From contig JAEUIE010000021.1 of NCBI GenBank assembly GCA_016795155.1, positions 1 to 56,085 of the forward strand: DNA of 56,085 nt, read 5' to 3'. Position numbers and translations under genes: made by a program. Below the pieces are notes generated by a model that was given only the letters and a program-made list of their open reading frames with translations, was not told the origin of the DNA and made no database searches. The stretch is from Planctomycetia bacterium (GTDB taxonomy: Bacteria > Planctomycetota > Planctomycetia > Gemmatales > HRBIN36). Positions 1,951 to 48,330 of this stretch are shown piece by piece. Positions within the stretch are counted from its first letter, which is position 1; each line of letters opens with the position of its first letter.

Positions 1951-3600
1951 ATGTTATCACGTCGGCGCTGGGTGCAGACTATTGCAGGAATGGGGATTGG
2001 CACCACCACGTTTCAGCGGGCATTGGCTGCACAGACAGGCAGTCAGCCTCGTGCCAATGTTACCCCCGAGATGATTCAGCAGGCGGAATGGATTGCAGGC
2101 ATCACACTGACTGAAGACGAACGCAAACGCCTTGCCGGAATGATGACTTCACAACTGCAGTCGTTTGCTTCCATGCGGCAAGTGAAGTTGGAGAATGACA
2201 TTCCGCCGGCACTGGTGTTTCAGCCTACGGCTTCACATACCGGGCAGCGGGAACTGGGAAGCATCAGCCTGGCGATGCCACGGCATGTCAGCAAGCCGAG
2301 AGCGGAAGATGACCTGGCATTTGCTTCCATGATCACCCTGAGCCACCTGATTCGCACCAGCCAGATGAGTTCACAGGAGCTTACTCAGTTTTATCTGAAG
2401 CGATTGAAGAAGTATGATCCGAAACTGCTGTGTGTCGTCAGCCTGACTGAAGACCTGGCCATGAAACAAGCCGAGCAGGCGGACCAGGAAATAGCACAGG
2501 GAAAATACCGTGGGCCTTTGCACGGCATACCCTGGGGCGCCAAAGATCTGATTGCCTATCCGGGTTACAAAACAACCTGGGGTGCCGGACCGTACAAAGA
2601 ACAAACTCTCAATACCAAAGCGACGGTTGCACGCAAGCTGGAAGAAGCCGGCGCTGTCATGATTGCCAAGCTCACGCTTGGAGCCTTGGCGATGGGCGAT
2701 GGCTGGTTTGGCGGCATGACGCGCAACCCGTGGAACATCAAGCAGGGGTCATCGGGTTCATCCGCAGGCTCAGCATCAGCAACCTCGGCAGGCTTGGTCG
2801 GTTTTGCCATTGGAACCGAAACACTCGGCAGCATCGTGTCGCCTTGCACTCGTTGCGGAGTCACCGGTTTACGCCCCACGTTTGGCAGAGTCAGCAGGCA
2901 TGGCTGCATGGCGCTTGCCTGGAGTATGGACAAGATCGGCCCGATTGCTCGCACCGTGGAAGATTGTGCATTCATCTTCAATGCCATACAAGGTATTGAT
3001 GCCGATGATCCGAGTACCGTAGACCGTGGATTTACTTACCCCTCTCCCAAGCCGCTGCGATCCATGCGGGTGGGGTATGTTGCCAGCAGCAAATCGATTG
3101 ATGAGCGGGAAGAGTTGCGAACACTTCGCGATCTCGGTGTTGAGCTGGTTCCGATCAAGATCCCTGCTCAATCGCGAGTCATGCCTTTGTTCACGATACT
3201 GACAGCCGAGGCTGGTGCCTGTTTTGATGAACTCACACGTAAAGGAATCAAGGAAGGCATAGGCACCTGGCCTGGAACGTTCCAGCAGGCACAGATGATT
3301 TCTGCAGTGGAGTATTTGCGTGCCAACCGTATCAGAACCCAACTCATGCGGGAAATGGACGACATCATGAAAGACATTGACCTGTATGTCGCAGGCAATG
3401 ACCTGATCCTGACTAACTTCACCGGCCATCCTCAGGTAGTCATGCCTTTCGGGTTCAACAAAAGTTCTGATGGGACCGAAACGCCGAAGGCCATTACCTT
3501 TACCGGCCGGCTATTTGGCGAAAGTGAACTGCTCACGGTAACGAACGCATTTCAGCAGAAAACCGGATATCACCTGCGCCGACCATCGCTGCCGAGTTGA
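1951..3600 (+). CDS. Amidase-signature hydrolase with twin-arginine signal
   Basis: This 549-residue amidase-signature enzyme hydrolyses amide bonds by a Ser-cisSer-Lys triad. Visible are Lys198 in GAKDL, the Ser-rich QGSSGSSAGSA loop around residues 268-278, and the nucleophile Ser294 in GTETLGSI. The N-terminus MLSRRRWVQT followed by a hydrophobic stretch ending in ALAAQ looks like a Tat signal, so the enzyme probably acts outside the cytoplasm, unlike GatA. A stretch of about 100 residues precedes the catalytic domain and may be a family-specific extension. GatB and GatC genes are absent nearby, which argues against a tRNA amidotransferase. The substrate is unknown. Confidence 0.88.
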   Translation: MLSRRRWVQTIAGMGIGTTTFQRALAAQTGSQPRANVTPEMIQQAEWIAGITLTEDERKRLAGMMTSQLQSFASMRQVKLENDIPPALVFQPTASHTGQRELGSISLAMPRHVSKPRAEDDLAFASMITLSHLIRTSQMSSQELTQFYLKRLKKYDPKLLCVVSLTEDLAMKQAEQADQEIAQGKYRGPLHGIPWGAKDLIAYPGYKTTWGAGPYKEQTLNTKATVARKLEEAGAVMIAKLTLGALAMGDGWFGGMTRNPWNIKQGSSGSSAGSASATSAGLVGFAIGTETLGSIVSPCTRCGVTGLRPTFGRVSRHGCMALAWSMDKIGPIARTVEDCAFIFNAIQGIDADDPSTVDRGFTYPSPKPLRSMRVGYVASSKSIDEREELRTLRDLGVELVPIKIPAQSRVMPLFTILTAEAGACFDELTRKGIKEGIGTWPGTFQQAQMISAVEYLRANRIRTQLMREMDDIMKDIDLYVAGNDLILTNFTGHPQVVMPFGFNKSSDGTETPKAITFTGRLFGESELLTVTNAFQQKTGYHLRRPSLPS

Positions 3601-5556: not shown

Positions 5557-8500
5557 ATGACAACCGAGAGCCTTTACGAACTGTTGATCAAAACACCATC
5601 AGCTGAGCGAGAAGCAGTGCTGGATCGGATTTGTGCCGGTGATCCGGTACTTCGAGCCAAAGCGAATGCTTTAATGGAACAAGAATCGTCAACACCTGAT
5701 GTTGTTCAAGCGTTAACCCAGGAAATGACTTCCGGGTTTGAAACGGGAGAATTCAAAGCAACGTCCGGCCCGATTCCTGGGCAAGTCATCGCCGGTCGAT
5801 ATACGCTGATTGAACGAATCGGTGAAGGGGGCATGGGCGAAGTCTGGGTAGCCAGGCAGACTGAACCGGTGAAACGCAAGGTTGCTATCAAGCTTATCAA
5901 GGCAGGTATGGATTCCAGGCTGGTTCTGCAGCGGTTCGAGCAGGAACGGCAGGCCCTGGCCATGATGGATCATCAGAATATTGCCAAAGTACTGGATGGT
6001 GGATTGACACAGGATCGTCATCCGTTTTTTGTGATGGAACTGGTGCATGGTCAACCCCTCACTAAATTCTGTGATGATGCCAAACTGGGTATTCGGGAAC
6101 GGCTGGAAGTGTTCATTCCTATCTGCCAGGCAGTGCAACATGCACATCAGAAAGGGATTGTGCATCGCGATCTGAAACCTGGGAATATTCTGGTATCTGT
6201 CCATGATGGTAAACCAGTTCCCAAGGTTATTGATTTTGGTGTGGCCAAGGCCACCAGTGGTCGATTGACTGACGATTCGCTTTCCACACAGTTTGGTGCC
6301 GTGGTAGGCACGCTCGAATATATGTCACCAGAACAGGCTGGCTTGACCGGCGAAGATATTGATACCAGGTCTGACATCTATTCTCTGGGAGTACTGCTCT
6401 ACGAATTGTTAACCGGTTTCCGCCCGATTGATGCCAGGCGACTCAAGAAAGCAGCGTTGACGGAAATGATTCGCATGATCAGGGAAGAGGAGCCTTCCAA
6501 ACCATCGACCAGGTTCTCGACCGATGAATCGGCTCCCTCGATGGCTGCATTGCGTCATACCGAGCCAAGAAAGCTGGTAAGTCTCCTGCGAGGTGAACTC
6601 GATTGGGTGGTGATGAAGTGCCTGGAGAAAGATCGCAGTCGTCGATATGAAACAGCCAATGGCTTGTCTCTGGAACTGCAGCGGTATCTGGCCGGCGAAA
6701 CGGTCATGGCTGCTCCTCCGAGTACGATGTATCGATTGCAGAAGTTCATCGCCCGGAACCGGGTAGTCGTTCTGGCCAGTGGCGCTGTCGCTGCAGCGCT
6801 ATTGGCTGGCATAATTGGATTTGCATGGCAGGCAAACCTTGCAAGGAAAGAGCGTGACGCCGCCATCGTGGCACAGCAATCCGAAGCGGAACAACGTCGT
6901 CGGGCCGACGAGCAGAAGGCAGCCGCTGAAGCCCAGAGAGCACGTGCAGAATCGGCAGAAGCTGAAGCAAAACGCCGTGCGGAAGAGTTGGAGAAAGTTG
7001 CTGAGTTTCAGGGGAAAATGCTTTCGCAGGTTAATCCCGCCCAGGCAGGAACACGGCTTTCAGAAGATGTTCGCACGCGATTCAATGCTTCGTTATCCAA
7101 GACTGGTGTCTCGGAAGCGGAACAGAAATCGCAACAGGAAATGTTCGCAAGTCAGTGGAGCAGGGTAAATACCACCGATGCAGCTCTGGATCTGATTGAC
7201 CAAACCATTCTCAAGCCCGCGATAGCAGCTATCGACAAGCAATTTGTGGATCAACCCGTCGTGTCAGCTAATTTGAAGCATGTTCTGGCGGAGAGGTACC
7301 ACGACCTGGGATTGAACCAGGCTGCCATGACACTGGAACATCAGGTACTGGCAGAACGGCAACGTGTACTGGGTGTGGATCATCCCGATACTCTGATTTC
7401 CATGGGTAACCTGGGGGTGTATCTGAATGCCCTGGATAAGCGTAAAGAGGCAGAGCCATACTATCGGGAAGCCCTGGAAAAGAGCCGTCGGGTGCGAGGG
7501 GATGATCATCCCGAAACGCTGGTCTGTATTGCCAATATGGGATCGATGCTTCGCGTCAATGGAAAATTCAGTGAGGCTGAAGTGTTATTTCGCGAGGCTC
7601 TGGATAAAAGACGCCGAATTCTGGGTGAAGAGAACCCTGAAACGCTGACATCGCTGGATGATTGGGGAATGCTGCTGAAAGATCAGGGTAAGTTGAACGA
7701 AGCAGAACCCTATTATCGAGAGACTTTAGAAAAACGACGTCGAGTCCTGGGAGAAGATCATCGCGATACGGTACGATCGGCCAATAATCTCGCCACCTTG
7801 TTGAAAGACCAGGGAAAACTCGAGGAATCGATCACGTACTTCAGGCAGATAGTGGAGATTCGTCGAAAAACGCTTGGCGATGTTCATCCGGACACGCTTC
7901 GGGCCATCCAGAACCTTGGTGCTGTATTGAATAGCAACGGTAATAACAACGAGGCAGAAGCCCTGCTCCGCGAAGCACTGGCCAGTCAACGCCGCATACT
8001 GGGTACCGATCATCACAGCACCCTTACCACCCTGGGAAACCTGTCGGTTCTGATGATCGGTCAGAACAAGCTGGCTGAGGCAGAACCCTTGTGCAGGGAA
8101 ACGCTGGAACGTCGACGACGACTCCTGGGTGACAATCATCAGGAAACGCTGATAGCAAACAATGTGATGGGTCTTGTGCTGGCACGGCAGAAAAAGGAAA
8201 CCGAGGCAGAACCGTACTGGCGAGACACCATGACTATCAGCCAGCGTGTACTGGGGCCTGCCCATCCCGACACCATGATCTATACCCATAATCTGGCCAG
8301 ACTTATGGCTGATCAGAACAAGAATGACGAAGCAGAAAAGCTCTATCGCGAAGTCGTTCAACGTGGTGGACCTGCTATCGGGGCCGGGCATCCTATCGTC
8401 ATGAGTGCCACCCGGCATCTCAGCAGTCTGCTGTTGCAGCAGAAACGGTATGCTGAAGCCGTTGAACTTCTGACCCAGGCAGAACCGGCGGCCCGCAAGT

Positions 8501-19698: not shown

Positions 19699-19802
19699 AA
19701 CTGTGGCAGGGTTATGCATGTACTCATGCATGACCCTGCGAGACGTGGAGTTGTTCACTTCCCGCAGGTTCATCCGGAGTAACGGATAACCCTGCCACGG
19801 TT
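19699..19802. repeat. Family II palindromic element (best-formed copy)
   Basis: Inverted ends AACTGTGGCAGGGTTA / TAACCCTGCCACGGTT match at 15 of 16 positions. The left hairpin has a long stem around GTACTC (19720-19725; ATGCAT on both sides). The right hairpin has CCG/CGG around GAGTAA (19777-19782), one base from GAGTAC. It separates the peroxidase from the TatD-like gene. Confidence 0.85.
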
Positions 19803-21225: not shown

Positions 21226-21780
21226 ATGTTCCCAACCGTTATCAAATCTCTGCATCTGCTGTCGCTTGCATTATGGTCTGGAGCAGTCGTCTTTTTCTCA
21301 TTCTTCGTGGCATTGCCCACCATCGACAGCATGAAGCGACTGGCACAAAGCACAGGCAACTGGCTGAAGCTCACCACCGAACAACAGGGAACCAGGCTGG
21401 CGGGCGAATTTCTCGATGTCGTCTTCACCCGCTATTTTCCGTTTCAGTGCATCTGCGGGTTGTTGGCACTCGTGACTGCCTGCTGGTGGTGGAATACGCC
21501 AGGCTGGCTTGGCAAACTGCGAGTCATTCTGATCGCACTGGCCTGTAGCGGAGCAGCGGTCAATTATTTCGTGCTGGCCCCCCGCGTGCATGACTTGCGC
21601 ACCCAGCGTTACTCAGAAGACAAGCAGGTAGCTGATTCTGCCAATGCAGAGTTTGGAAAAGCACACAATTACAGTTTGATCCTCGATATGGTGGGTTTGC
21701 TCTGTGTGTTGATTACGTTGATTCTCTTCGTGATGGTTGAGCAAAGTACCCTCTCCCTCTCGGGGAGAGGGTTAGGGTGA
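21226..21780 (+). CDS. DUF4149-type four-helix membrane protein with repeat-derived C-terminus
   Basis: The protein has 184 residues from the ATG at 21226, 14 bp after the DUF2007 gene; an upstream in-frame start at 21055 would overlap that gene and is unlikely. Four membrane helices are visible (SLHLLSLALWSGAVVFFSFF; ICGLLALVTACWWW; LRVILIALACSGAAVNYFVL; LILDMVGLLCVLITLILFVM). The layout fits DUF4149, a family of unknown function often annotated as TMEM205-like. The last ten codons and the stop lie inside the palindromic element at 21748-21899, so the natural tail was replaced or extended by the repeat. Confidence 0.8.
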   Translation: MFPTVIKSLHLLSLALWSGAVVFFSFFVALPTIDSMKRLAQSTGNWLKLTTEQQGTRLAGEFLDVVFTRYFPFQCICGLLALVTACWWWNTPGWLGKLRVILIALACSGAAVNYFVLAPRVHDLRTQRYSEDKQVADSANAEFGKAHNYSLILDMVGLLCVLITLILFVMVEQSTLSLSGRGLG

Positions 21781-21899
21781 GGGGTTTATTCTTATGGCGT
21801 AAGCCCTTCATGAAATGATCATTTACAAACAACACGAAGGGCTTCGCCATTAGCGTATCCCCTCACCCCCAGCCCCTCTCCCCAAGAGGGAGAGGGGAG
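21748..21899. repeat. Family VI element (CCCTCTCC/GGAGAGGG palindrome), overlapping a gene end
   Basis: The ends are about 36-bp inverted copies, each a hairpin (CCCTCTCC..GGGGAGAGGG, then TTAGGGTGAGGGG). The centre carries another inverted pair (AAGCCCTTCAT / CGAAGGGCTTCGCC). A full second copy lies at 27901-28049 and a solo end lies inside pntAA at 39124-39165. Confidence 0.85.
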
Positions 21900-21925
21900 A
21901 AATCGAAGTGCATTCTAGTCAGGCT

Positions 21926-22078
21926 CGGGTGCCATGGTTTGTGTGTACCCACACTAACCATGCTCAACGTTACTGAGTGTCATTCTGTGCTTGGGTGAAG
22001 GAAAAGGCAATTGTTTAGTTGAGTCATTCCATCCCCGTAGCATAGTCAGCCGGACATACCGGCAGGCTATGGCACCCG
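21926..22078 (+). repeat. Family I MITE-like element, copy 1
   Basis: A 153-bp unit with 10-bp perfect inverted ends CGGGTGCCAT / ATGGCACCCG. A left hairpin has loop GTACCC within GTGTGTACCCACAC. There is a conserved middle (TGCTTGGGTGAAGGAAAAG) and a right hairpin GCCGG-ACATA-CCGGC. It is in the same orientation as the copy at 23184-23334. The two bracket a two-gene cassette. Confidence 0.85.
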
Positions 22079-22084
22079 GGCACG

Positions 22085-22480
22085 TTAGCAACTTGCCTGA
22101 CGTATACTCTGAATGTTTGCGAAAATGTTATTTACGATACTGTTTTGATCCGGTTCGCCATTATACGAATGTCCTACGCCGATAAGCTCAAAATTCCCTG
22201 GATGATAACTTTCGTCGAATGCCGATTTTCTAGCTTCTTCGATAAGCCCGTGAGTCCACTTAGCTGCTGTTCCAACCTTTTTTGTCAAAACGTTAAATAT
22301 GACTGCATCAATATCGGTCAGTTCCAGCATCATAGTCCGTCCAGCCGTTAAGGCAAATCCATACATTAGCATCCCAAGTATCGACGCACCCAATTCGTCA
22401 TTCTCGTCCACCCACCTTGAATCCGCAAGAATATGATCAACCAACTCTCCAACGCTTTTAGTCAAAGCGGCACTATTCAC
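22085..22480 (-). CDS. Orphan protein of unknown function (cassette gene 2)
   Basis: The protein has 131 residues and I recognise no family. It is a soluble, probably mostly helical protein with a rather hydrophobic middle (GASILGMLMYGFALTAGRTMML) that could be a buried helix rather than a membrane span. It starts 28 bp after the stop of the 168-residue gene on the same strand, so the two likely form an operon. Its stop is 6 bp from the edge of a family I element. The DNA is visibly more AT-rich than the surrounding core genes, consistent with acquisition. The arrangement resembles mobile accessory pairs, but no toxin, antitoxin or immunity motif is visible. Confidence 0.6.
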   Translation of the reverse strand: MNSAALTKSVGELVDHILADSRWVDENDELGASILGMLMYGFALTAGRTMMLELTDIDAVIFNVLTKKVGTAAKWTHGLIEEARKSAFDESYHPGNFELIGVGHSYNGEPDQNSIVNNIFANIQSIRQASC

Positions 22481-22508
22481 AGTTAATTCCTTTTTACTTA
22501 AAGATTGA

Positions 22509-23015
22509 TTACAGAATAACTAATTGACCATGATCATAATCTTTGCCGATCCAGCCGCAAGGTATTCGGCCATTAATAATAAGCTCGTGCATTTCAAAGT
22601 AGAACGGCTCATGAATATAATTTTTGAATTGAAAACAGAAGACAATAAAGAGGATAACCCTGTCCATGGTAGCAAGTAGCTTGTCAGGCAAGTCTGCATT
22701 CATTACTTTGTCTCTAACCATGGAAGATGTAACAGCTTTAATATGATCAACATAGTCGTTATAATTTGGGTGCTTAGTCGAATCCCGAAGGCTAGTAAAT
22801 TTTGGGAATAACTCTTCACGTATTCTATTCGCCGTTTCAACAAGAATTCCATTCCAGACCCTTTTGGACATCAACTCAAGCGCAGTGTGTATGTTGTCAG
22901 CAAGTGCATATTTTCCCTCGTGAATGCCGAGGGGTTGTCCGAATTTTGAAAACCAGTTTGCATTCCTTAGTTGTTCGATGACTTCCGTGGCTTCGTTTGT
23001 CAGAACGCAATTCAT
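22509..23015 (-). CDS. Orphan protein of unknown function (cassette gene 1)
   Basis: The protein has 168 residues and I recognise no family. The sequence looks all-helical with charged surfaces (EVIEQLRNANWFSKFG; LADNIHTALELMSKRVWNG; ANRIREELFPKF) and a hydrophobic segment near residues 120-135 (RVILFIVFCFQFKNYI). The C-terminal part (FYFEMHELIINGRIPCGW) may be a small beta unit. It is the first gene of a minus-strand pair with 22085-22480. Its upstream side carries a family II and then a family I repeat. AT-rich base use matches its partner but not the neighbouring MATE or DUF4149 genes. Confidence 0.62.
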   Translation of the reverse strand: MNCVLTNEATEVIEQLRNANWFSKFGQPLGIHEGKYALADNIHTALELMSKRVWNGILVETANRIREELFPKFTSLRDSTKHPNYNDYVDHIKAVTSSMVRDKVMNADLPDKLLATMDRVILFIVFCFQFKNYIHEPFYFEMHELIINGRIPCGWIGKDYDHGQLVIL

Positions 23016-23081
23016 AAATCACCCTCAATCGTTGAACATCAAACAGAAGCCGGGTGCCCGGAATATTGACCCCAAGCGATC

Positions 23082-23183
23082 AACTGTGGCAGGGTCGTGT
23101 GGTACTCCACTCGACCCTGAAGTCTCGCGGAGAAGTTGCTCCTCAGCAACAGGGTCGAGAATGAGTACTTTCACGACCCTGCT
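23082..23183. repeat. Family II palindromic element abutting family I
   Basis: The left end is AACTGTGGCAGGG. The left hairpin has an imperfect 12-bp stem around GTACTC (23102-23107) and the right hairpin a 13-bp stem around GAGTAC (23163-23168). It runs directly into the family I element at 23184 with no spacer. With that element it fills most of the 387-bp gap between the orphan cassette and the MATE gene; I see no gene there. Confidence 0.85.
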
Positions 23184-23334
23184 GGGTGCCATCGTTTGTG
23201 TGTACCCACACTAACCATGCTCAACGGTACTGAGTGCCATTCTGTGCACGGGTGAAGCAAAAGGCAATTGTTTAGTTGAGTCTTTCCATCCCCGTAGCAT
23301 AGTCAGCCGGACATACCGGCAAACGATGGCACCC
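23184..23334 (+). repeat. Family I MITE-like element, copy 2
   Basis: A 151-bp unit whose ends (GGGTGCCATCGTTTG and CAAACGATGGCACCC) form a perfect 15-bp inverted repeat. Body and internal hairpins match copy 1. The inner bases of the terminal repeats differ from copy 1 but still pair with each other. Confidence 0.9.
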
Positions 23335-23402
23335 GGCTCTCGTTCATGGTTCTACTCTTATAAAAAGATAGGCAGCATTGTTCCTCGAAACCACACCCTA
23401 AT

Positions 23403-27856: not shown

Positions 27857-27900
27857 GATGATTTACTCCTCAAATGAACTGCCTCAAACAGATCTAAGTA

Positions 27901-28049
27901 CCCTCTCCCCCCTGGGGAGAGGGTTAGGGTGAGGGGTAATCATTCGTGGCGAAAGCCCTTCGTATCATGAACATTTACACACAGCACGTAGGGCTTCGCC
28001 ATCAGAATATCCCCTCACCCCCAGCCCCTCTCCCCGGTGGGGAGAGGGG
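27901..28049. repeat. Family VI element, second full copy
   Basis: The same architecture as 21748-21899: CCCTCTCC..GGGGAGAGGG ends in inverted orientation, a TTAGGGTGAGGGG extension, and a central inverted pair (GGCGAAAGCCCTTCG / AGGGCTTCGCC). It fills about half of the 330-bp gap between the zinc-ribbon and EF-hand genes. The rest holds a terminator and no gene I can see. Confidence 0.85.
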
Positions 28050-28139
28050 AGTAAGACAATATTCATGCTCAGTTTGAGTAACTGAGTTATTGTGAATGAC
28101 TTTAGAAGCAGCCGCAAGTCAGAAACACCAAAAGAAACA

Positions 28140-37987: not shown

Positions 37988-38124
37988 AGAGTGGTTCCTG
38001 TTGTGATGTTGTCTGCGTTATTGTAGTGGCTTGAAGTGGAACAAATCGTTAGCCTAGTCAAAGCGGTGCGAGTAAGCTGATATCACAATGCAGCTAAGTG
38101 TTAACGCATTGATATCGTGCGAAT

Positions 38125-38163
38125 CGGGTGCCACGGTTTGCGTGTACTCACGCTAACCGTGCC
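38125..38163 (+). repeat. Solo family I hairpin upstream of pntAA
   Basis: CGGGTGCCACGG leads into a 12-bp stem with one mismatch around the loop GTACTC (38144-38149). Only the left end of a family I element is present. It ends 51 bp before the pntAA start codon. A near-identical solo copy lies 56 bp before the gene at 48331. Confidence 0.8.
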
Positions 38164-38214
38164 AATTCACCGAATAGACACTTTTCGGGCATACTTAGGC
38201 GGACGAGGTAGATC

Positions 38215-39405
38215 ATGAAGCTGGCAGTTCCCCGCGAAACGGTACCGGGAGAAACGCGAGTGGCCCTGGTGCCTGAATCGGTGAAAAAACTGGTCGGTGC
38301 TGGTTTCCAGGTCAGTGTCGAAGAAGGTGCAGGTAGCGCTGCGGGGTTTGCTGATCAACTTTATCGCGATGCAGGAGCCACCATTGAAAGCAGTGCCGAT
38401 GCGTTATTTAACCATGCAGATTTTATTCTGAAAGTATCCGCACCGACCGTGGATGAAGTCAAGCTGTACCCATCACAAGCCAGGCTGCTGACTTCCCTGA
38501 TGCCTACCCGACATATCCCCGCAGTGCAGGCTCTGGCTCAGCGGGGTATCACCAGTTTTTCCACCGATGCCATTCCGCGAACCACCCGTGCCCAGGCCAT
38601 GGACACGCTTTCCTCGATGGCCAACATTGCAGGCTACAAAGGCGTGTTGCTGGCAGCAGTGGAGTTACCTCGTTATTTTCCGATGTTGATGACTGCTGCA
38701 GGCACGGTGATGCCCGCCAAGGTTTTTGTGATTGGCGCCGGTGTTGCCGGTCTCCAGGCAATTGCAACTGCCAAGCGATTGGGTGCACAGGTTTTTGCAA
38801 CCGATGTTCGCCCTGAAGTGAAAGAACAAATCGAAAGCGTCGGAGCCAAGTACGTTGGCATAGAATTGAAGCAGAGCGCTGCAGCAGGTGGTGGCTATGC
38901 CAAGGAGCTTTCAGAAGAAGACAAAGCCCGACAGAAACAGATGCTGGCAGAGCAGTGTGCTGTTTCTGATGTGGTAATCACTACCGCACTCATCGGCGGA
39001 GTGTTTGCACCCAGACTCATCGGCGAAGACATCGTAAAATCAATGAAGCCCGGCTCCATCATCGTCGATCTGGCCGCCGACGGCGGCGGAAACTGCGAAT
39101 TGTCCCAGCCAGGGTTTCTTGTTCCCCTCTCCCCTCTGGGGAGAGGGGTTAGGGGTGAGGGGAGAGAGCAAGGCGGAGTTACCACTGTCCATGGTGTCAA
39201 AATCATCGCCCCACTTAACCTGCCCGCTTCCGTTCCTAACCATGCCAGCCTGCTCTGGTCTCGCAACCTGACCAGTTTTCTGTTGGCCTTCTGGAAAGAC
39301 AAGAATTTCCAATTCGATCTCAACGACGAAATCCTCCGTGGCAGCCTGATCACCCACCAGGGTGAGGTGATGCACGCCAAGACGAAGGAGTTGATCAAGC
39401 CATGA
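38215..39405 (+). CDS. pntAA: NAD(P) transhydrogenase subunit alpha part 1, with a repeat-encoded insert
   Basis: The 396-residue NAD(H)-binding domain I of proton-translocating transhydrogenase passes hydride between NADH and NADP+. Signatures are RETVPGETRVALVPE, RTTRAQAMDTLSSMANIAGY, the Rossmann motif GAGVAGLQAIATAKRLGA, and PGSIIVDLAADGGGNCE. Residues about 304-317 (PLSPLGRGVRGEGR) are encoded by a family VI palindrome at 39124-39165. Normal homologues go from the NCEL..PG segment straight to the NGV.I.G-like segment, so this is an in-frame insert. GAGG lies about 6 bp before the ATG. The stop overlaps pntAB as ATGA. Confidence 0.93.
   Translation: MKLAVPRETVPGETRVALVPESVKKLVGAGFQVSVEEGAGSAAGFADQLYRDAGATIESSADALFNHADFILKVSAPTVDEVKLYPSQARLLTSLMPTRHIPAVQALAQRGITSFSTDAIPRTTRAQAMDTLSSMANIAGYKGVLLAAVELPRYFPMLMTAAGTVMPAKVFVIGAGVAGLQAIATAKRLGAQVFATDVRPEVKEQIESVGAKYVGIELKQSAAAGGGYAKELSEEDKARQKQMLAEQCAVSDVVITTALIGGVFAPRLIGEDIVKSMKPGSIIVDLAADGGGNCELSQPGFLVPLSPLGRGVRGEGREQGGVTTVHGVKIIAPLNLPASVPNHASLLWSRNLTSFLLAFWKDKNFQFDLNDEILRGSLITHQGEVMHAKTKELIKP
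39124..39165 (+). repeat. Family VI palindrome inside pntAA
   Basis: CCCCTCTCCCC / GGGGAGAGGGG hairpin followed by TTAGGGGTGAGGGG, the same sequence as the ends of the intergenic elements at 21748-21899 and 27901-28049. It is exactly 42 bp (14 codons) in the reading frame, with no stop codon. Confidence 0.85.
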
Positions 39406-43167: not shown

Positions 43168-43318
43168 GAATCCGTGCCACACTCCAGTCACTGTACTCAA
43201 TGGATGGGGTGTGCTGCGCGCATGAGATGACGACACTACTCACCTATGCGAAACGAGTAACACGGTTAGTGCTTCGCAACCACACCCCGACGAGTACGTC
43301 GGAGTGTGGCACAAATTC
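43168..43318. repeat. Family III palindromic element (GTACTC/GAGTAC loops)
   Basis: The inverted ends (GAATCCGTGCCACACTCC and GGAGTGTGGCACAAATTC) agree at 16 of 18 positions. The left hairpin carries loop GTACTC (43193-43198). The right hairpin has a 12-bp stem with one mismatch around GAGTAC (43292-43297). It lies between the divergent GlcD-type and DUF58 genes, 59 bp before the DUF58 start, so both promoters must sit in or beside it. Confidence 0.85.
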
Positions 43319-44266: not shown

Positions 44267-44405
44267 GAATCTGTGCCACACTCCGGCATGTACTCATGAC
44301 GGGGTGTGGTTGCGGGAACATGAGCCCATCTCATCTAATCAGAGTGACGCTACGAGTGAATGCAGCACACCTCGACGTGAGTACCTGTCGAATTGTGGCA
44401 CGAAT
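44267..44405. repeat. Family III palindromic element, second copy
   Basis: The left end GAATCTGTGCCACACTCC leads to a hairpin around GTACTC (44290-44295). The right half has a hairpin around GAGTAC (44379-44384), then TTGTGGCACGAATGC. It directly follows the DUF58 stop codon, so the DUF58 gene is flanked on both sides by family III elements. Confidence 0.8.
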
Positions 44406-48186: not shown

Positions 48187-48235
48187 ATTCATATCATTCG
48201 TAGAGCAGTTCTTTCGCTTGGAAAATCATGCGGGT

Positions 48236-48274
48236 CGGGTGCCACGGTTTGAGTGTACTCACGCTCACCGTGCC
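48236..48274 (+). repeat. Solo family I hairpin upstream of the GT87-like gene
   Basis: CGGGTGCCACGG leads into an imperfect 12-bp stem around GTACTC (48255-48260), ending in CCGTGCC. It differs from the solo copy at 38125-38163 by few bases. It sits 56 bp before the start codon at 48331. Confidence 0.8.
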
Positions 48275-48330
48275 AATTTAACGCATTGTTATTCTTGCGG
48301 CTAACTGAGTTGTCATGCTTGGACAGTTCC

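Follow-up and report, generated by a model that had tools for sequence, protein, structure and literature searches.

The stretch of DNA analysed here (the window, 56,085 nt) is one entire contig (C21) of a 5.28 Mb genome (G000; 68 contigs, 97% complete), the source of which probably belongs to the order Gemmatales. Two short open reading frames (ORFs), encoding proteins of 168 and 131 amino acids, lie between two REPINs, inverted doublets of REP hairpins, with genes encoding cytochrome peroxidase, TatD, DUF2007-like, DUF4149, MATE and HAD proteins as neighbours. The features concerned are as follows.

52–210 (approximate), minus strand: third REPIN of the same family, at the left end of the contig, inverted and 78–80% identical
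21927–22079, plus strand: REPIN copy 1, consisting of hairpin H1, a spacer of approximately 80 bp and inverted hairpin H2
22085–22480, minus strand: 131-aa ORF, all-helical, patchily distributed family with weak Imm48 similarity, possible immunity protein
22509–23015, minus strand: 168-aa ORF, RhsI2-like predicted fold, C-terminal motif PCGW, read as an orphan immunity protein
23083–23187 (approximate), no strand assigned: sibling-family REPIN, GTGGCAGGGTCG... hairpins, GTACTC loops at 23103 and 23167
23184–23336, plus strand: REPIN copy 2, with GGGTGCCATCGTTTG at both ends

Much of this layout had been described in an earlier, sequence-only reading, which was borne out in several respects. 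The two directly repeated elements of approximately 150 bp are in the same orientation and 93% identical over 153 nt, and both possess perfect terminal inverted repeats, of 10 bp in copy 1 (CGGGTGCCAT) and of 15 bp in copy 2. One gene does end close to an element edge, the stop codon of the 131-aa gene lying 5 bp from copy 1. The enclosed same-strand pair is indeed AT-rich, with GC contents of 39.8% and 43.4% for the two genes against 52.1% for the window, and none of 1104 sliding 930-bp windows across the whole contig was lower in GC than the gene-pair stretch. The genes were also said to be of unknown family and accessory, and neither belongs to any curated family. The 168-aa protein gave nothing above cut-off against Pfam, NCBIfam and PADLOC, and searches of both proteins against NCBIfam, PHROGs and PADLOC returned nothing over chance. 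The 168-aa and 131-aa families were found in 4/61 and 5/61 near genomes and in 9/343 and 4/343 genomes over the phylum, respectively. As the two genes are 28 bp apart on the same strand they probably form a single transcript.

The elements had been termed MITE-like, which was nearly right; they are small non-autonomous repeats, namely REPINs. Each full copy carries two hairpins of one kind, H1 (GGGTGCCATGGTTTGTGTG-TACC-CACACTAACCATG) and, on the opposite strand, H2 (GGGTGCCATAGCCTGCCGG-TATG-TCCGGCTGACTATG), giving the two inverted REP hairpins plus spacer of the REPIN/RAYT anatomy described in PMC3116915. The REP hairpin bears a GTGSCA tag, and most of its versions have a GTAC loop. A census based on pattern searches and fetched loci produced 50 genomic matches to the left-hairpin pattern and none in a reversed control, the matches lying mostly between ORFs, together with seven near-full 150-bp copies; there are thus many extragenic copies in the one genome. 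The window itself contains 13 tagged hairpins, compared with 0.1 expected from a Markov control, hairpins of this kind are present in 7 of its 32 gene gaps, and no match to the window REPIN family was found in 25 relatives. Across 18 different hairpin versions 97% of stem cells were paired and two-sided changes occurred in 9 of 12 pairs; none of 500 shuffles reached this level of pairing, nor did slid registers come close, and the folded strand of the hairpin is therefore a target of selection or mobility. Rfam searches gave nothing beyond chance matches, which fell far short of the gathering scores, and integron attC-like sites were rejected from the sequence, as boxes of that type are missing from the ends and the hairpin occurs as a dispersed unit.

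Individual copies show some further peculiarities. In copy 2 the presence of GGGTGCCATCGTTTG at both ends breaks one pair of the left hairpin while perfecting the terminal inverted repeat, and its ends seem to have been homogenised. Lone H1 hairpins (38114–38198, 48225–48309 and loci L020–L049), which often lie 20–100 bp upstream of an ORF start, form part of a conserved unit that extends further and seems to have an outer stem, ATGCGGgT ... aCCGCAT. This unit looks better conserved than would be expected of decayed REP singlets; a brief look at the lone H1 hairpin as a leader element found neighbouring genes of mixed orientation.

The GTGSCA tag and GTAC-loop stem recur in sibling families, forming inverted doublets in the window at 19721/19781, 43194/43296 and 44291/44383. 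A further doublet at 23103/23167, the second hairpin of which falls just outside the tag rule, belongs to the sibling REPIN that separates the start of the gene pair from copy 2 and abuts the latter. Sibling REPINs with GTGGCA and GTGCCA tags and GTACTC loops occupy the intergenic stretches 19700–19800, 43180–43310 and 44270–44400. A third repeat family, characterized by CCCTCTCCC/CCCTCACCC palindromes, is present at 21739–21902, 27891–28054 and 39117–39163, and the first of these copies directly precedes REPIN copy 1. The DUF4149 ORF ends inside that copy and thereby takes its final residues and its stop codon from the repeat. The doublet at approximately 23083–23187, the third-family copy at 21739–21902 and the roughly 50-fold scatter of the hairpin were all absent from the sequence-only account.

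Elsewhere in the genome a Y1 transposase gene (contig C32, 35497–35727) was identified as a RAYT by NCBIfam NF047646 (90 bits, cut-off 80), with a GTGGCA-type inverted doublet, a sibling REPIN, on each side. It is a candidate mobiliser of the GTGSCA-tagged repeats. No RAYT flanked by GGGTGCCA-type hairpins was detected in this genome, so that mobilisation of the window family by a RAYT in trans is inferred, as probable. Mobilisation of REPs by RAYT is described in PMC2817692, and the repeats resemble the RAYT-mobilised REPINs of that source and of PMC3116915 in that they form inverted pairs of hairpins with compensatory changes in the stems, lie outside genes and share the genome with a REPIN-flanked RAYT. 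They differ in tag (GTGSCA with a GTAC loop, against the GTAG or CGTC tags of PMC3733652) and in the window doublet, which at 153 bp is longer and has hairpins that are not alike.

Profile searches and structure prediction, both proposed with the sequence-only reading, were informative for the 168-aa protein, yielding an RhsI2-like predicted fold, but matched the 131-aa protein to no solved fold. The AlphaFold model of the 168-aa protein (pLDDT 89.7, pTM 0.86) aligned by VIA-align with RhsI2, the protein that confers immunity to Rhs2, a T6SS effector of Serratia marcescens (8cm0; Z 11.2, rmsd 3.1 over 132 residues). Both RhsI2 structures, 8cm0 and 9t38, were matched (Z 11.2 and 10.9), and the best unrelated chain scored Z 3.5, although helical folds can attain middling Z by chance. 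Foldseek comparison of the model to the PDB gave nothing significant, 8cm0 was not listed up to E 10 when PDB sequences were searched with the family profile by hmmsearch, and the profile produced only chance matches to helical PDB stretches. The 168-aa protein is accordingly classed as RhsI2-like by fold and not assigned to an RhsI2 sequence family.

One species-genome scan detected 25 loci of the 168-aa family, from Planctomycetota, Proteobacteria, Verrucomicrobia, Paenibacillus and one cyanobacterium; a plasmid search gave one weak match. The window protein is only 17–28% identical to the other aligned members, a level at which its binding specificity would not be predictable. A second paralogue, 26% identical, is encoded in the same genome (C3:92782). 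At that locus (L082:6680–6725, 6777–7283 and 7582–8058) approximately 300 bp separate the paralogue from a gene for a baseplate/VgrG-like OB-domain protein, and a tagged REP hairpin follows the stop codon of the paralogue closely, approximately 50–80 nt behind the gene, but around one fifth of window gene gaps also hold such hairpins.

The neighbourhoods of homologues provide a separate indication of function. In six loci (L086, L087, L088, L089, L097 and L110) the homologue starts 0–38 bp after an ORF encoding an HNH-like toxin tip with the motifs NHLNQ, PHYNFH and (V)PRIPGR, these being looser in the related tip of L110. The tip ORF of L097 includes a pretoxin HINT domain (E 1e-11); in L110 the tip (L110:3635–3994) ends an 1157-aa RHS protein with 11 RHS repeats (E 1e-81). 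No match to the tip was obtained in Pfam, and its profile found nothing in the PDB. At other loci the homologue is either solitary or next to a SUKH-1, DUF6881 or XisI gene. The toxin profile was found in three genomes that also encode the 168-aa family (G003, G007 and G011) and in G058, a genome-level co-occurrence (p 4e-4) that is partly ascertained, the profile having been built from immunity-gene neighbours. Fold match and toxin adjacency are independent and agree, both leading to an immunity reading of the family, and RhsI2 is known to block the DNase Rhs2-CT (PMC4524185). The 168-aa protein is very probably an antidote against a rival's DNA-cutting toxin. The window gene itself is without an adjacent toxin, and single-protein and profile searches for the toxin in G000 were empty, although at 97% completeness a gap could hide one. 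As this genome has two family members and no detected cognate toxin, the 168-aa gene is most likely an orphan immunity gene. RhsI2 and the window protein share size and predicted fold, and relatives of the latter sit directly behind an HNH-like tip; they differ in that identity is 11% and that the window gene, in a planctomycete genome with no detected family toxin, lacks a neighbouring one.

For the 131-aa protein an immunity function is plausible, at about an even chance. The model is all-helical (pLDDT 88) and resembles Imm48 (PF15574) in a weak profile match over positions 7–97 of 123 (E 0.002); the score of 18.3 bits is under the curated cut-off of 25 and the match is not common to relatives, appearing in one of five. 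Foldseek searches against PDB and BFVD gave nothing significant, the best VIA-align hit had Z 4.1 with no solved relative found, and plasmids contained no match. A distant relative (L077) shares a gene row with an immunity gene of SUKH-4 type and one resembling carrier-protein genes, and another relative is near a DUF4272 gene. That the 131-aa gene could instead be an unrelated accessory gene merely lying behind the orphan immunity gene is close to evenly poised, leaning a little to the doubtful side: in L017, L018 and L019 homologues of 40–53% identity are on their own, next to unrelated genes, the Imm48 match is weak and no solved fold was matched, whereas the SUKH-4 row and the size, patchiness and operon arrangement of the gene suit immunity gene rows.

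The two families were not adjacent in any other genome examined, and in G011, G241 and G298, where both are present, they are at distant places; a constant co-occurrence of homologues, which the earlier reading had put forward for checking, was not upheld, nor was a constant association with the repeat, as both families also occur in genomes where the repeat was not found. Because of this lack of linkage the pair is read as a local assembly, as in orphan immunity rows. Such rows and islets have been described as rAID (recombinase-associated acquired interbacterial defence) in Bacteroidales (PMC12247911), in an S. Typhi islet (PMC7400221) and in Serratia Rhs loci (PMC10539506), and the window pair resembles them in comprising short co-oriented immunity genes without toxins, diverged from toxin-linked relatives and patchily distributed. 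It differs in having just two genes, flanked by REPINs, without an adjacent T6SS or Rhs locus and, unlike rAID, with no tyrosine recombinase among the neighbours.

The same unlinked distribution bears on the proposal that the locus is a composite mobile unit, in which two REPINs, or recombination between them, brought the gene pair in. A cassette bracketed in this way would be losable by homologous recombination, leaving an empty site with a single REPIN. The bracketing is non-random: copies 1 and 2 are the most similar of the seven near-full copies (93% identical ungapped, 90% in a multi-copy alignment, against 62–85% for other pairs), they are 1257 bp apart (P ~5e-4 under uniform placement, 0.01 for any pair), and they enclose the most AT-rich stretch of the window. 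However, tandem clustering of REPINs and their insertion beside existing ones are known (PMC3116915), and the doublet abutting copy 2 is an instance of such spread at this locus; local REPIN spread therefore accounts for the bracket as well as cassette capture does, and no cassette transport is needed. Hairpins of this kind already occupy more than one gene gap in five in the window, REPINs occur singly genome-wide, other copies were not seen bracketing cassettes, there is no evident target-site duplication, and both genes have homologues in genomes in which the repeat was not found. In relatives having both, the DUF4149 and MATE genes are on different contigs and so are not neighbours. Carriage of the pair by its REPINs is accordingly judged unlikely. 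A broader role of REPINs as recombination joints for gain and loss of immunity cassettes in Gemmatales-like planctomycetes, a RAYT/REPIN analogue of rAID, is a very remote prospect. A preference of full REPINs for immunity genes was considered and rejected, since other copies adjoin mixed genes and only the HNH-like neighbour on C14 is clearly AT-rich. There, a full REPIN (L139:1932–2080) adjoins a gene of 42% GC encoding a 403-aa protein (2248–3459) which, by eye only, resembles an HNH endonuclease.

Two short same-strand genes so closely spaced might also constitute a toxin–antitoxin or anti-phage defence module rather than immunity to delivered toxins, and the 168-aa protein weakly matches HicB-like (E 0.026) and AbiB (E 0.012) profiles. 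The HicB-like match is, however, far below cut-off and not common to relatives, the partners are unlinked elsewhere, homologues follow RHS and pretoxin tips, and the predicted fold is that of RhsI2, making such a module very unlikely.

We regard as quite probable the overall explanation that the two genes form an accessory locus, acquired and situated in an intergenic region rich in REPINs, with the 168-aa gene providing orphan immunity. The pair would have arrived by horizontal transfer. The 168-aa protein would remain cytoplasmic, where it may bind a competitor's delivered toxin, of Rhs or pretoxin type, at its HNH-type nuclease tip and block its DNase activity, as RhsI2 does that of Rhs2-CT, thereby protecting the host. 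Because no such toxin was found in G000, this protection would be directed at the toxins of others. A second immunity protein may be encoded by the 131-aa gene, and the flanking REPINs would be bystanders. What had been proposed as an undescribed accessory system is indeed accessory, but is now read as orphan immunity in the case of one gene, possibly of both. All of the parts are new members of kinds already known. These data offer a likely function for a widespread 168-aa family and for an HNH-like toxin tip, both nameless and without a Pfam match, demonstrate a RAYT/REPIN system in planctomycetes, and suggest that planctomycetes keep orphan immunity genes against contact-delivered toxins.
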